Source of the DNA: Bacteroidota bacterium
Lineage (GTDB): Bacteria; Bacteroidota; Ignavibacteria; Palsa-1295
DNA length: 35,240 nt
Direction: 5' to 3'
Assembly: GCA_021825235.1 (NCBI GenBank)
Contig: JAKAIL010000007.1
Coordinates: 1 to 35,240 of the forward strand
This document shows, piece by piece, positions 24,091-30,259 of the stretch. Every line of letters starts with the position of its first letter. The stretch's first letter is position 1. A program made the position numbers and the translations under genes. The notes under the pieces were generated by a model, which worked only from the letters and a program-made list of their open reading frames with translations, did not search any database and was not told the origin of the DNA.

Positions 24091-27000
24091 TTACCGTTCG
24101 ATCGCCACGCTCCGGCTTTCGGCATACCCGCCGGAACTGATGCGCAGGAAGTAAATGCCGCTGGGTAGCCCGCTGACGTTGAGGGCGGTTTCGAAGTGGA
24201 TAGTGGATAGTGGAGAGTGGTGAACGAGGACGCAGTTCCCAAGCGCATCGAATAATTGGAACTCCAAATCGGACTTGGGATCTCGGAGTTCGGATCCCGG
24301 ATTTCCGGACCCCGGTTCCCGGATGCCGGTCCCCGTTACCGCCAGAACGGTCGAAGCCGGATTGGGAACCACGCCTGTAATGCTAAACGGCGGCTCATGC
24401 TCCATCGCTTGCTGGATGGTGAGATCGCCGCACCGGTAGAGATACTGGAACCCCGAGCCGTTGCTGTCCACGCTGGCGATGCAGTCCAGTGGCAGATTGA
24501 GTGGGCCATTGAAGGTGATGTCCGAGAGCGAGAGCGGCGTCGCGGAGGAATCCGTGAGATAGACCTGGAACGTAAGTGTGCCAATAGTGTCCGGTGAGTG
24601 CGCCGCGGTGGGCGCACTCCACGCGAACGTATCGCTCCGCGAAGGCGTCCGCGTGGTGGTCGCCGACCCCGGCGACCAGATCAGGCCCGAAGCGTTCCGG
24701 AGTTCCAGCAAATCGTCATTATGCGTGAGCACGAATCGCAGCCCTTTAAGTTCACTGGCTGCCGCGCCCGTATCGCCGGTGAGGATAACGTAAAAGGTTA
24801 CCGTCTGCGCAGCGTGGGCCGCGTAGGTCGGCGCTTCCAGCCCGACCGTCAGCTTCAGGGGCGGAATAATGGTCGCCACCAAGGGAATGGTTTTAGTCCT
24901 TGCGCCGTCGTTCGCGTCACTGAAGAAGGTTACACTATCTGCGGTGACGCCACTGCCGGCAGCATACTGTACCACCACCGGAATGGTATCGCCCGGCGGC
25001 AGCAGGGGCGGCAAGGCCCCGACCGACGAAAGGGCTGGGCTCGAAAAGACCATGCTATCGAGCATGAGCGTGTCACAGCCGGGATTCGCGAGCCAAAGCG
25101 TGGTGTCGCGGTATTCGCAGGCGAAGAGCGAACCGAAATTGCGGGTCGTGGTGTCGGCGGAGAGCGCGGTTGGGCCGCCGAGACCGAAGCCGGAAAGAGT
25201 TACCGCGGTATCGTGGCCGGGATCGTTCACGATATTGCGCTCATGGCAAGTAAGCGTAGCCGCGTGCGGGCCTTTGAGCCGTGGCGCAAATGAAATGGAA
25301 ACGATTGCCGAATCTCCCGACACAAGCAGCGAATCGGGAACCGAAACGAGCGAGAAGGCCGTGTCCCCGCTTACATGCAGGTCCGTTAAGACGAGCGTAT
25401 CGCAGCCCAGGTTGCGGAGCGTGTCCGTTACCAGCGTATCGCCCGAGCAGAAGGAAAGGCTGCCCATTTGTAGGGACGTGCTGCGCAGGGCCAACACGCC
25501 CATGCCTTGCACCGCGTGGCCTGTTAGCAAAATCACCGTGTCTTCAATCAAGCCCATTGAGGTAACGCGCAGCTTCACGGTTCCAGTAAAGGTTCCGGAA
25601 TCTGGCGGAGCGAAAATGTATTTGAAACCAACTGAATCACCCGACCGGATGACCACGGGAAGCGAAACCTTTGGTCCATCAAAACTGGCGCCAATGAGGA
25701 AAAGGCTCGTAATCGTATCCGGAGTGCAGTTCCAATTTTTAAAGTAAGCGAGATCCGTATCAGCAACCGAATTGGCGCACATCCTGAGCATACCGAAATC
25801 CAGGGAATCCGGAATGGAAAGCTTTGGCTGGGAAGGAATGGCCGTCAGAATAATCGTAAACGTTGTATCGAACTGCGTTGTAGTTCCCTCGTAATATCCC
25901 GTAAGTTCCACTGTTGCAGTGTCATAAAAGCTCGTATCGTGCGGGTCAAACTCGAAAGGGAGCCAATGGCGGTCGAATTGCAGCGTATCGGGAAGAGGCG
26001 ATTGGAACTGTAATCGATTCGAAGAAATATTTGAAATCGCCACATTCCTGATGATGAGCGACTGGCAGGAATCGATAGCAATATGGGCCGTATCATCGAC
26101 AAGTCCGCAGCTCCCGATGAGCGGAGCGGAACTTATCGAGAGTGACGCACTGGGGTTTGTGACGATAATCGTTCGCACCTCCTCCCAACTCGAGCAATGC
26201 CATGAGTTCTGGAACCTTACGGTGACGGTATCAGCTGCTGGAGAACGCCCTGGGAGGACCTCGAACCATGCCGTGTCCCGCTGATTCGCACCGAGGAGGA
26301 AGTTTGAGGCGCCCGCAGAACGCAACGGATAGAGACTATCCGTGTTCACGACAGTGTAAATACTATCCACGCACCCTTCGAGCGGAATAGGAACGCGAAC
26401 GCCCGAGCAATTCGAAGCAACGCGTATTGTGTCCGCAAGCGACATCGGAAACCCGGTGGAATCCAAGGGGTCGGTTACATCGTGCAACGCCCCATCGCCG
26501 CCAGTTGTCGTGAGATAAAGTGTAAGTTCGCTGTCACCTGAAATACCTCCATACGTTGGAACAACTACATACTGCCCCAGAGGGCCAAAAACCGCGATAT
26601 GGCCCACGCCTCCGGCAAGCGACCCAGGCATATTAGCGGAAGTCCACGTTTCTCCATCGTTTGTGGACCGTAGGCGGCGGGTATAAATAACCCCCGCTGC
26701 TCCGTCGAGAAACTCGTTCGCATATCCCAGTGAGTCAATTGTGTCGCGTTCCCATGACGTTCCGGAATCGAATGAGCAATAGACAAGGGCCTGTAAATCC
26801 TCAGCTCCGAACGCGAAGATTTTCGCACATGTGTCGCCATAGCAGCCATAGCGTTCAAAAATGTTTATGCCCGTGTTATGCCATGTTATTCCTCCGTCGT
26901 TTGAAATTTGGACAGAGCCAGGTGAGTTGTATTTAGAAGGGGAAGCGCCCGCAGGGACTGTCGTAAACAAGCAATGGAACTTATCTATACGCGCGAAGGT

Positions 27001-27561
27001 CGCATAATAGTTTGGCGTCTGGGATGTGTATGGGATAGTTCGGATCACTCCATTCGGATCATCATAGACATCCCACGCGTCGCCAAGGCCAAGCCCGGAA
27101 AAATTCCAGCTCTTGCCGGAATCGCTCGAGATGAGAAGGTCCGGCCCGAAGCAAGCGGCGCACAATTTTCCGTGAATAAGCCGTATCGCATTGATTTGCT
27201 TCACGGTTCGTGGCAGCGCGATCTGTCTCCACGAGCGGGTGTTCGAAGTGTAGAAAATATATTCCCTGCGGCCTGAGTCATTACCAGTGGGAGGCGGCGC
27301 AATAATGGATCCCGAATCGATATTTACCGCAACAATTCCGTGGAGGGTATCGAAGAAGAACATACAATCATATCGCCCACTGGTGTCGCGGTATGAAGGC
27401 GCCTGCGCTGATATTTTAGCCCTTCCAATAGGAAGAGTGGCAATCGGTTCCCAATACTTCAAAGTATCATCTTGGATTTGGGCTCTTAAAGGCCGCGTTC
27501 CAGAACCCGCTTGAAAAAGCAGGATCGAAACTACCGTTAGCAAAGAGGAACGGATCTCCAT
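24091..27561 (-). CDS. Large secreted protein: BNR/sialidase-like N-term, ASH/HYDIN-like repeats, cohesin-like domain, C-terminal sorting domain
   Basis: Signal peptide MEIRSSLLTVVSILLFQAGSGTRPLRAQ; ISSDSGKSWNFSGLG, ISNDGGITWHNTG (BNR); repeated (N)FGS(L)...D(T)..L.N.GCDTL...(ASH); C-term ITGVVPNPASTVLAVTG...QLFDALGNCVLV...LPSGIYFLRI. Confidence 0.85.
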   Translation of the reverse strand: MEIRSSLLTVVSILLFQAGSGTRPLRAQIQDDTLKYWEPIATLPIGRAKISAQAPSYRDTSGRYDCMFFFDTLHGIVAVNIDSGSIIAPPPTGNDSGRREYIFYTSNTRSWRQIALPRTVKQINAIRLIHGKLCAACFGPDLLISSDSGKSWNFSGLGLGDAWDVYDDPNGVIRTIPYTSQTPNYYATFARIDKFHCLFTTVPAGASPSKYNSPGSVQISNDGGITWHNTGINIFERYGCYGDTCAKIFAFGAEDLQALVYCSFDSGTSWERDTIDSLGYANEFLDGAAGVIYTRRLRSTNDGETWTSANMPGSLAGGVGHIAVFGPLGQYVVVPTYGGISGDSELTLYLTTTGGDGALHDVTDPLDSTGFPMSLADTIRVASNCSGVRVPIPLEGCVDSIYTVVNTDSLYPLRSAGASNFLLGANQRDTAWFEVLPGRSPAADTVTVRFQNSWHCSSWEEVRTIIVTNPSASLSISSAPLIGSCGLVDDTAHIAIDSCQSLIIRNVAISNISSNRLQFQSPLPDTLQFDRHWLPFEFDPHDTSFYDTATVELTGYYEGTTTQFDTTFTIILTAIPSQPKLSIPDSLDFGMLRMCANSVADTDLAYFKNWNCTPDTITSLFLIGASFDGPKVSLPVVIRSGDSVGFKYIFAPPDSGTFTGTVKLRVTSMGLIEDTVILLTGHAVQGMGVLALRSTSLQMGSLSFCSGDTLVTDTLRNLGCDTLVLTDLHVSGDTAFSLVSVPDSLLVSGDSAIVSISFAPRLKGPHAATLTCHERNIVNDPGHDTAVTLSGFGLGGPTALSADTTTRNFGSLFACEYRDTTLWLANPGCDTLMLDSMVFSSPALSSVGALPPLLPPGDTIPVVVQYAAGSGVTADSVTFFSDANDGARTKTIPLVATIIPPLKLTVGLEAPTYAAHAAQTVTFYVILTGDTGAAASELKGLRFVLTHNDDLLELRNASGLIWSPGSATTTRTPSRSDTFAWSAPTAAHSPDTIGTLTFQVYLTDSSATPLSLSDITFNGPLNLPLDCIASVDSNGSGFQYLYRCGDLTIQQAMEHEPPFSITGVVPNPASTVLAVTGTGIREPGSGNPGSELRDPKSDLEFQLFDALGNCVLVHHSPLSTIHFETALNVSGLPSGIYFLRISSGGYAESRSVAIER
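24196..24223. repeat. Heptanucleotide tandem array GTGGATA-type x4 inside CDS
   Basis: GTGGATA GTGGATA GTGGAGA GTGGTGA (+ strand). Confidence 0.85.
24268..24324. repeat. Degenerate heptamer array (NTCCGRN on minus strand) inside CDS
   Basis: Minus strand ATCCGGG AACCGGG GTCCGGA AATCCGGG ATCCGAA CTCCGAG ATCCCAA GTCCGAT, one 8-mer in the middle. Confidence 0.65.
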
Positions 27562-27578: not shown

Positions 27579-27612
27579 GAAGGCTGGAGGCCTTCGAGAG
27601 CTTCCAGCCTTC
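27579..27612 (-). terminator. Intrinsic terminator-like hairpin
   Basis: GAAGGCTGGA (27579-27588) / TCCAGCCTTC (27603-27612); minus-strand transcript continues CATTTTTA. Confidence 0.65.
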
Positions 27613-27621
27613 TTAAGATAG

Positions 27622-27717
27622 TTACTTGACCACTAACATCGTCTTGCTTGCTATAACCACGCCTTTCGGGAACTCAATAGTATAATAATAAGTGCCCGAA
27701 GACGAATGTAAACCCGT
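27622..27717 (-). pseudogene. Orphan C-terminal sorting-domain tail (decayed secreted-protein gene)
   Basis: Minus strand: stop, then TGLHSSSGTYYYTIEFPKGVVIASKTMLVVK, stop; matches the terminal motif of the neighbouring sorting domains (LPSGTYYYTLKAG...). Confidence 0.7.
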
Positions 27718-27769
27718 TTAAGCAGAGAGATTCCGCCTATATAACACAACTCCCCGCCAAAAGTTACAC

Positions 27770-27799
27770 CTACAAAAACTCGGTCATCTGCCGGCGCTT
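27770..27799. repeat. Exact 30-bp copy of the manC 3' end (C1)
   Basis: CTACAAAAACTCGGTCATCTGCCGGCGCTT, identical to 29141-29170; minus strand reads KRRQMTEFL stop. Confidence 0.95.
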
Positions 27800-27821
27800 C
27801 AGGGGGCTTGCTGAGCGTCTC

Positions 27822-28121
27822 TTAGAGGCGCTTGTCCCAAAATCCTGGCCTACGTTTGTGGTGGCGAATGGCGATAACACTTATCTCCGTTTCGCTATCA
27901 ATGGTATAGAGAACAGAAAATGGGAACCGCTTAGGAAGCGGCCAGGAACGAACATTCTCGTAATCGGCAGGATATCGATAGGGATCCTGTGAAATCAACT
28001 CATAAACACGATTAACTTCTGCTTTAAATTGTCGTGCGGCGCGTGGAGCCTCTTGCGAAAGGTAATAGTCGATGGACTGGGTAAAATCACGCCCGGCATC
28101 GGAGCGGGTATGGATGGTCAT
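27822..28121 (-). CDS. RelE/ParE-family toxin
   Basis: DAGRDFTQSIDYYLSQEAPRAARQFKAEVNRVYELISQDPYRYPADYENVRSWPLPKRFPFSVLYTIDSETEISVIAIRHHKRRPGFWDKR; 4-bp overlap with the upstream antitoxin. Confidence 0.85.
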   Translation of the reverse strand: MTIHTRSDAGRDFTQSIDYYLSQEAPRAARQFKAEVNRVYELISQDPYRYPADYENVRSWPLPKRFPFSVLYTIDSETEISVIAIRHHKRRPGFWDKRL

Positions 28122-28366
28122 CGATGTTTACGTTCCCAATCGGAAATCCTCTTTTCTGCGCGGGCCATCATCTCTTCTCGAGTACTGTAGGTTCCTTCAC
28201 CGCGGCGGTGTGCTTCCATACGACGGCGAATTTCCTCGTCCCACGCCTGATCCAGCTCGGTCTGGCTTTCGGCCAGATGCACCTCGATTTCATCGGCCAA
28301 CTTGCGTTGACTCTCTAAGTCCAACTCCAGCACTTCTGCGCGAATTCGTTCGTACGACCGGTCCAT
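28118..28366 (-). CDS. Addiction-module antitoxin (TIGR02574-like)
   Basis: MDRSYERIRAEVLELDLESQRKLADEIEVHL...; small acidic ORF directly before a ParE-like toxin. Confidence 0.75.
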   Translation of the reverse strand: MDRSYERIRAEVLELDLESQRKLADEIEVHLAESQTELDQAWDEEIRRRMEAHRRGEGTYSTREEMMARAEKRISDWERKHR

Positions 28367-28406
28367 GAAAGGACAAACGATGCGCGAAGCCTTTTGTTCC
28401 GAAGAC

Positions 28407-28455
28407 CATCTGCCGGCGCTTCAGGGTAGTCCACAACGTGGCGGACAGTTCTGAG
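28407..28455. repeat. Degenerate copy of the manC 3' end (C2)
   Basis: CATCTGCCGGCGCTTCAGGGTAGTCCACAACGTGGCGGACAGTTCTGAGC versus manC CATCTGCCGGCGCTTGAGGTAGTCCACGACATCGCGGACGTTCTGGGC; minus strand VRHVVDY versus ManC VRDVVDY. Confidence 0.85.
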
Positions 28456-28514
28456 CTTAATCTCACGTTAAGAGATGCTGACAGATACCAGCAGATGTTG
28501 TTGAAGTTCTTAGG

Positions 28515-28811
28515 TCATTCGAACTGCCTCAAGTATCCTGCATCGCGCGCTTTATGCTTGATGGATGCAACGGTAATATCGTCGGCCTTCAGCCGGTAAA
28601 TCACAAAGAACGGGAACTTCATCAGCGGCCAGGCGCGTAAGCCTCGATGTTTGGGCGGGTATCGTTCGGGATCGTTCCGGATTTCCGTGTAGATTCGACT
28701 TACCTTGTCCGCGAATCGGTTTGCCGCGCGTGGTGCCAACTGATCGTCGAGATACCATCGGAGGGCGCGTAAGAAATCGTGCTGCGCTGGCGAGAGGATA
28801 TTGAACGTCAC
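28515..28811 (-). CDS. RelE/ParE-family toxin
   Basis: LSPAQHDFLRALRWYLDDQLAPRAANRFADKVSRIYTEIRNDPERYPPKHRGLRAWPLMKFPFFVIYRLKADDITVASIKHKARDAGYLRQ; 4-bp overlap with the antitoxin. Confidence 0.85.
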   Translation of the reverse strand: MTFNILSPAQHDFLRALRWYLDDQLAPRAANRFADKVSRIYTEIRNDPERYPPKHRGLRAWPLMKFPFFVIYRLKADDITVASIKHKARDAGYLRQFE

Positions 28812-29050
28812 GAGCGATGCTTGGTTGCATCCGCAATTATCTTCCGTGCTTGCGCGATAGATTCCTCGGGGCTGATTGCGGTGAGTTCGCCTCGGTCATA
28901 CGCTTGCAAACGCCGGTGGGCTTCTTCGAAATCGGATTCGCTGGGCTCGAACGGCCCCAGGCGTCCCTCGACTTCATCGATTAACTCCCGCTGGCGTTCG
29001 GGGTCGAGTTCCAAGACTTCCGCCCGAATCGCTTCAAAGGATCTGTCCAT
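28808..29050 (-). CDS. Addiction-module antitoxin, paralog of 28118-28366
   Basis: MDRSFEAIRAEVLELDPERQRELIDEVEGRLG...; same opening as the other antitoxin (MDRS[YF]E.IRAEVLELD.E.QR.L.DE.E..L). Confidence 0.78.
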   Translation of the reverse strand: MDRSFEAIRAEVLELDPERQRELIDEVEGRLGPFEPSESDFEEAHRRLQAYDRGELTAISPEESIAQARKIIADATKHRS

Positions 29051-29140
29051 GGAAAATGAACCTGTGAAAGATTGTGTAAAGTGCCCGCCTGCCTTATGCT
29101 AAGAAATTGCCTCCGGGCCAACAACTGTATTTTTGAAAAT

Positions 29141-30259
29141 CTACAAAAACTCGGTCATCTGCCGGCGCTTGAGGTAGTCCACGACATCGCGGACGTTCTG
29201 GGCCTGATCGCGCTTGGTGATGAGGATGGCATCGCCGGTATCGACCACGATGGCGTCCGTCATGCCGTAGGTCACAACGAGCTGGTCCGTGCGGGAGATG
29301 ACGAGGCAGCCGCGCGAGTTCCGCGCAAGCACATGGCTGCCAATGAGGACGTTATTCTCCAGGTCCTTTTCGCTTAAGCGATACACTTCGTCCCAACTGC
29401 CGACATCGCTCCATCCAAGCGCGCCCGCGCGCAGGACATACACGTTCTGCGCCTGCTCCATCACACCATAATCAATCGAAACGCCACGGATGGTGCCATA
29501 GGCTTCCCGGAGCCTGGCCGGGAACTCCGCGCTATTGCGCGGTGGCACAATTTCGAGTTCCCGCATTATCTCCGGCGTGTACTCATGGAGCGCGGCTTCA
29601 ATCGCGTCCACGCGCCAGGCGAACATGCCGGAGTTCCAGAGGAAATCTCCGCTTTCGACGAAGCGGCGCGCGGTATCCACGTCGGGTTTTTCGGCAAACC
29701 GCTGGACGCGGAAAATATCGCGCAGCTCGAATTCGGAAAAATGGGGTAGCTCGTTATGCGAAGGCAGGTGCTCGTCGTCGAGCTGGATATAGCCAAAGCC
29801 GGTCTCCGCGCGCGTGGGATGAATACCGATGGTAACTAATGCGCGGGTATCGTAGGCCAGCCGTGCCGCAAGCTTCATGAGTCGGGCGAATTCGGATTCG
29901 TTCCGGATGATATGGTCCGCCGGCAGCACGACCATCACCGTATCGTCCGAAGCCCATTCGCGCAAAATGCGGGCGCCAAGCGCAATGCAGGTCGCCGTGT
30001 TGCGGCCAAAGGGTTCCGTAATGATATTCTGCCTGGGCAGGTCCGGAATTTGGCGCTCCAGTTCCTCGCGCTGCGCTTCGCCGGTGACGATGAGCGTATC
30101 GCCCAAATCGGAGAAAAGGAGCGTGCGCCGGAGCGTCGCCTGAATGAGCGTGACGCCCGGTGTAATGACATCGAGCAATTGCTTGGGGCGCCGCGCGCGG
30201 CTCTCCGGCCAAAACCGAGTGCCCACACCGCCCGCCATAATGAGTACGCTAATTTTCAA
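29141..30259 (-). CDS. manC: Mannose-1-phosphate guanylyltransferase
   Basis: MKISVLIMAGGVGTRFWPESRARRPKQLL (TTG start), RNTATCIALGARIL, VVLPADHII, ETGFGYIQ, EKPDVDTA, FLWNSGMFAW, YGVMEQA, WSDVGSWDEVY. Confidence 0.93.
   Translation of the reverse strand: MKISVLIMAGGVGTRFWPESRARRPKQLLDVITPGVTLIQATLRRTLLFSDLGDTLIVTGEAQREELERQIPDLPRQNIITEPFGRNTATCIALGARILREWASDDTVMVVLPADHIIRNESEFARLMKLAARLAYDTRALVTIGIHPTRAETGFGYIQLDDEHLPSHNELPHFSEFELRDIFRVQRFAEKPDVDTARRFVESGDFLWNSGMFAWRVDAIEAALHEYTPEIMRELEIVPPRNSAEFPARLREAYGTIRGVSIDYGVMEQAQNVYVLRAGALGWSDVGSWDEVYRLSEKDLENNVLIGSHVLARNSRGCLVISRTDQLVVTYGMTDAIVVDTGDAILITKRDQAQNVRDVVDYLKRRQMTEFL

Follow-up and report, generated by a model that had tools for sequence, protein, structure and literature searches.

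How small chromosomal toxin-antitoxin (TA) modules reach unrelated sites in the absence of a carrier has long been asked. The horizontal mobility of such modules is documented, and TA 'islands' have been described, in which pairs from different classes cluster in a manner not accounted for by tandem duplication (Makarova et al. 2009, PMC2701414). Restriction-modification (RM) genes are reported to insert with long target duplications in the 100-bp range (Nobusato et al. 2000 and Furuta et al. 2010, as reviewed in PMC3874152 and PMC4978471). In Microcystis aeruginosa MaOC1, a ParE/ParD-like TA pair has a direct repeat of 152 bp on each side (PMC7935541). A full-text search of openly accessible journal articles returned no description of the physical trace of a TA module's move and none of a lineage-wide pattern of TA target duplication.

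The DNA analysed here, referred to as the window, is a stretch of 35,240 nucleotides from the genome of an uncultured soil Kapabacteria-type bacterium. It carries an intact manC gene for mannose-1-phosphate guanylyltransferase (29141-30259; Pfam NTP_transferase, 1e-42, and ManC_GMP_beta-helix; NCBIfam TIGR01479) on the minus strand, as are the modules and manC tail copies described below. Two ParE/PF09720 modules follow on the strand of manC. Insert 1 (28463-29140, 678 bp), between the manC stop codon and the next copy of the manC tail, consists of TA module 1 with margins of 90 bp (5') and 52 bp (3'). It encodes a PF09720-like antitoxin of 80 aa (28808-29050), which alone falls below the Pfam threshold but is 51% identical to the antitoxin of module 2, and a predicted ParE-family toxin of 98 aa (28515-28811; PF05016, E 1e-7). 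Insert 2 (27805-28406, 602 bp) holds TA module 2 with margins of 40 bp (5') and approximately 18 bp (3'), comprising an antitoxin of 82 aa (28118-28366) that is the one PF09720 member recognized by Pfam (E 1e-7) and a predicted ParE-family toxin of 99 aa (27822-28121; PF05016 ParE_toxin, E 3e-10). Toxin and antitoxin genes overlap by 4 bp in both modules (28118-28121 and 28808-28811). By family, small neighboring antitoxin and gene overlap, both are predicted to be type II TA modules, and the two TA modules noted in the first-pass annotation of this sequence are borne out. Between the array and a type IX secretion (T9SS) gene at 24091-27561, the interval 27600-27720 contains a remnant resembling the end of a T9SS C-terminal sorting domain. 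A PIN-domain toxin gene also stands behind manC in one relative (G004:C35:29304-29561, L046), with no detectable tail copy.

In the direction of transcription the order is manC, module 1, tail copy 2, module 2, tail copy 3. As first reported, the last 30 bp of manC (29141-29170) recur exactly at 27770-27799, within tail copy 3 (27770-27804), with 33 of 34 positions matching over 27770-27803, and the degenerate copy noted between the modules is real (copy 2; 28407-28462, 56 bp, 84% identity). These are not two independent tails; they are the halves of one 71-nt tail copy. Copy 2, the 5' part, matches manC upstream of and through CAGATG, while copy 3, the 3' part, matches from CCCTGAAG to the stop codon, and the two overlap by exactly 20 bp. 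The shared block, CCCTGAAGCGCCGGCAGATG, is the longest exact block common to both copies (28407-28426 and 27785-27804) and carries a substitution and an inserted C, both absent from manC. Joined at this block, copies 2 and 3 give 71 nt of manC tail with TAG at the end, 87% identical to the parental 3' end (29141-29209, likewise ending in TAG) in a 71-column alignment. Since the joined copies form one complete tail, a single distal tail copy appears to have come first and to have been split later by module 2. The simplest history would be a nested insertion, in which module 1 entered at the manC stop codon with a target duplication of approximately 70 bp, the parental 3' end being its target segment, and module 2 then entered the distal, dead tail with an exact 20-bp duplication, of which 28407-28426 would be the proximal and 27785-27804 the distal copy. 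A 21-bp core of the tail, searched with up to three mismatches, had no further copy in the 3.8-Mb genome, and the reversed-pattern control returned 0. In 11 relatives manC has a single tail and no such modules, so that only one of 12 genomes has the tail copy.

The manC array is one case of a genus-wide pattern. Seven genomes of the window's Kapabacteria genus, all metagenome-assembled (MAGs) or draft assemblies, were examined; the genus mates are labeled Bacteroidetes, Ignavibacteriae or Candidatus Kapaibacterium, with isolate names that refer to Centralia, palsa and Chersky. The census took in PF09720 and VapC/PIN loci away from contig ends. Direct repeats bracket 35 of the 67 TA loci (16/30 for PF09720 and 19/37 for PIN) in five of the seven genomes; listed repeat pairs measure 27-199 bp, with a median of approximately 75, and the duplications including manC range from 20 to about 200 bp. 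The first-pass annotation had suggested a search for other TA modules flanked by copies of a neighboring gene end, and took TA modules lacking tail copies across the clade as evidence against tail-targeted insertion. Bracketing is seen at these 35 loci and is lacking at the other 32, suggesting that the duplication is frequent but not universal, or that it decays. By comparison, 3 of 400 random positions were bracketed, one of the three being the manC finding itself, as were 12 of 400 positions in the window and blind contigs from the same genome. The background was measured on 1.07 Mb of contigs taken blind. Behind the 3' ends of long ORFs the count was 11 of 600, of which at least one (BrnT/CopG, L343) is itself a TA locus. 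This chance fraction lies above zero, as direct repeats can also arise from T9SS tails and from paralogues in tandem. Fisher's exact test gave approximately 1e-30 for TA loci against both random and long-ORF sites; loci within a genome are partly dependent, arrays having repeats in common, and the enrichment is far larger than this dependence could explain. Outside the genus and within the same class, bracketing was rarer (4 of 23 PF09720 loci). Other TA loci of the window's genome are also bracketed, often in arrays at a spacing of roughly 630-860 bp, including one of four tails whose three cassettes all differ and lie in both orientations (C330), three tails with further pairs (C198) and three tails each on C89 and C232. 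Insertion with a long target duplication is best read as the chief visible route by which this genus acquires TA modules.

The repeats copy the edges of whichever host gene stands at the locus. Identifiable 3' ends are those of T9SS-sorted surface proteins, mutS, map (methionine aminopeptidase), rnhB (RNase HII), gcvPB, ruvX, a PfkB kinase and manC; host gene names other than manC are our own reading of the sequences. At trmD it is the 5' end that is duplicated, around a DUF5615/DUF433 module (G001:C1 22632-22711, L131), indicating that duplication is not restricted to 3' ends; no clean empty site was found for trmD, whose upstream region is not conserved between species. Tail copies occur only where a cassette stands (manC in 1 of 12 genomes, map in 1 of 7, mutS in 2 of 6 and gcvPB in 2 of 7). 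At map, mutS, gcvPB and rnhB sites without a cassette, the host tail is single and the next gene differs between species; downstream synteny proved too fluid in these between-species comparisons for an exact empty junction. The end of gcvPB was hit separately in two species, by VapBC in the window's genome (G000, L306) and by a different small gene in G004 (L320; repeat of 48 bp, 87.5%), and with different cargo and its own duplication in each it is a possible hot spot. In C89 and C198 the tail repeats (L150, L151, L152) derive from the 3' end of a DUF2283-like gene, itself a member of a separate TA-like pair, which reads as modules inserted behind other modules. The distance between the end of the proximal repeat and the stop codon has a median of 5 nt and does not exceed 11 nt at 15 of 18 loci, and this tightness also holds in repeat pairs of more than 90% identity. 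Part of it can be attributed to selection, since insertion further upstream breaks the gene and insertion in front cuts off its promoter, and part to faster decay of non-coding sequence.

The same VapBC pair was found at three sites in three species, between three unrelated repeats, and its DNA homology spans the module and stops near the repeats, which points to the TA module as the unit that moves. Inserts are 324-1070 bp long, mostly 520-830 bp. Among 63 inserts no common ends, end motif or notable base preference was detected, terminal inverted repeats were at chance level (2 of 63 against 1.6% expected), and no recombinase or integrase genes, including integron integrase, were found within inserts. 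Ku (PF02735) was detected in none of the seven genomes (0/7), at odds with Ku-dependent end joining. Apart from TA genes and small unknowns, the inserts contain nothing else, with one exception, a peptidase S51 gene between 70-bp repeats of 81% identity (L144:2324-3244), which is a non-addiction cargo. When stricter limits were applied to the blind 1.07 Mb, some twelve bracketed segments were left. Four were TA by Pfam (BrnT/CopG, DUF4258/DUF2283, DUF5615/DUF433 and PF09720), and the others comprised the peptidase S51 gene, one T9SS gene pair and segments without recognized content. TA modules are greatly over-represented among bracketed segments and not exclusive to them; the peptidase and the segments of no recognized content suggest that addiction is not a strict requirement. 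An apparent hit at L343 2737-3870 was dropped, as it looked like two neighboring T9SS genes. Bracketed proteins without a Pfam match at L366:1721-2639 (174 aa) and L137:12458-13427 (a pair of 205 aa and 68 aa) are candidate new toxins or TA pairs.

For the observed arrangement, its enrichment at TA loci, the host-specific repeats and the occurrence of one TA pair at different sites between different repeats, the explanation we hold to be reasonably probable is that TA modules are gained as compact units of approximately 500-800 bp that enter beside a resident gene, in most cases at its stop codon, with 20-200 bp of target duplicated. As the target would be duplicated on insertion, the host gene would remain intact, and beyond the module would lie a dead copy of the gene's edge. 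No sequence-specific enzyme would be involved. A foreign fragment may be captured at a staggered break that is filled in on both sides, or a replication fork may switch template to TA DNA and return 20-200 nt behind its exit point. Later modules would land in dead tails and build up tail-TA-tail-TA-tail arrays. Precise deletion is favored by direct repeats as long and as close as these, and cells that lose a TA module are penalized. Addiction may consequently act as a filter, such that modules whose loss kills the cell would tend to stay. The clustering at stop codons counts against this explanation, as it seems tighter than a random process plus selection would predict. So do the lower frequency of bracketing outside the genus, the recurrence at several loci of cassettes with one tail type in the T9SS and DUF2283 arrays and, as regards addiction, the non-TA cargo.

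Homologous recombination could instead spread ready-made tail-plus-TA units, with circles or fragments crossing over in a resident tail to yield tail-TA-tail and arrays growing and permuting in the same manner. T9SS-tail cassettes in C330 and C74 have modules and tails in common, DUF2283-tail units recur in C198 and C89, and the DUF433/DUF5615 and VapBC modules are adjacent in L161 and L171 in opposite order, which suggests circular permutation within arrays. A prior event placing TA beside each tail would nevertheless be required, the repeats at mutS, map, rnhB and manC have no evident second source, and the second manC insertion has only 20 bp in common. This alternative is judged unlikely; tail-homology recombination probably adds to insertion inside arrays such as these.

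Similarly unlikely is a dedicated, undetected recombinase that acts in trans, places TA cassettes at stop codons and duplicates a long stretch of target. Insertion no more than a few nucleotides from the stop codon (15 of 18 cases), the narrow insert size and the restriction to one lineage are what it would predict, whereas the lack of shared insert ends, the chance-level terminal inverted repeats, the variable duplication length and the module inserted mid-tail at manC are not. The trans-mobilised, non-autonomous TA cassettes of the first-pass annotation may still apply. Put forward tentatively, as less likely than not, is that the genus has an unrecognized mobility route by which single TA modules are placed in either orientation exactly behind stop codons while a long stretch of target is duplicated. 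TA modules would then be independent mobile elements, and the activity would be a trans-acting enzyme or fork switching focused on gene ends.

Site-specific integration into the manC 3' end in the style of a tyrosine integrase, which regenerates the coding end, accounts for the restored end at the junction and is close to the leading idea of the first-pass annotation. Its observation that the inserts at manC lack an integrase was correct, and gain by insertion with the gene end preserved stands, the end being kept by duplication. Integrase-like targeting of manC or of gene 3' ends is not supported, and is very improbable: inserts are below 1.1 kb, there is no attL/attR logic, the duplicated stretch is 20 to about 200 bp long, differs with each host gene and can be a 5' end, as at trmD, and the diversity of unrelated targets contradicts it. 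Tail targeting is accordingly replaced by genome-wide TA insertion with target duplication. Recent tandem duplication of a tail-plus-TA unit followed by divergence, also suggested earlier, would fit the presence of ParE/PF09720 in both manC modules. It carries equally little weight, since the toxins are 42% and the antitoxins 51% identical against 84-97% for the tail copies, so that neither module is a recent duplicate of the other, and since TA families differ within arrays elsewhere (ParE, VapC, MazF-like, DUF4258). An artefact of mixed-strain metagenome assembly, conceivable for MAGs and drafts, is scarcely credible given that copies differ by 3-20%, that five independent assemblies show the pattern, and that G001 and G002 have mutS-TA-tail in common at the orthologous site, an arrangement that therefore predates their split.

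Selfish TA pairs appear to move independently of any known mobile element, and the trace of their insertion is visible here dozens of times, open to dating, mapping and testing. Should the addiction filter hold, it would explain why RM genes and TA modules have an insertion signature in common, since close direct repeats favor precise loss and the genes that remain would be those whose loss is punished.

Compared with known systems, the pattern lacks the hallmarks of DNA transposons or insertion sequences, with terminal inverted repeats at chance level and duplications of 20-200 bp in place of a fixed short length. Integrative elements at gene 3' ends likewise restore the gene end after insertion, but they bring an integrase and a constant att core, whereas the inserts here have no integrase and about 1 kb of cargo or less, and the many unrelated host targets have no fixed core in common. 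Integron cassettes also form arrays of small TA modules with repeats of approximately 60-130 bp between them; unlike attC sites, which are common to cassettes whatever the neighboring gene, the repeats here come from the coding end of the host gene at each site, differ between loci and accompany modules in both orientations. In MaOC1, as here, the pair stands behind a gene, the first repeat beginning 14 bp after the stop codon and the second lying behind the toxin; that case differs in being a single locus in another phylum, with repeats outside the gene that were not read as a target duplication (PMC7935541). RM insertion with long target duplication is alike in its addiction-type genes, absence of a known mobile element and long variable duplications. 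Here, too, the unit is flanked by repeats (35/67) and the cargo is of the addiction type without transposase or integrase, the peptidase S51 gene excepted. Unlike in the RM cases described, the inserted genes are TA modules, which occur by the dozens per genus, in nested arrays and at the stop codons of housekeeping genes. The text on TA islands makes no mention of direct repeats (PMC2701414), and the repeats described here supply a history for such clusters.
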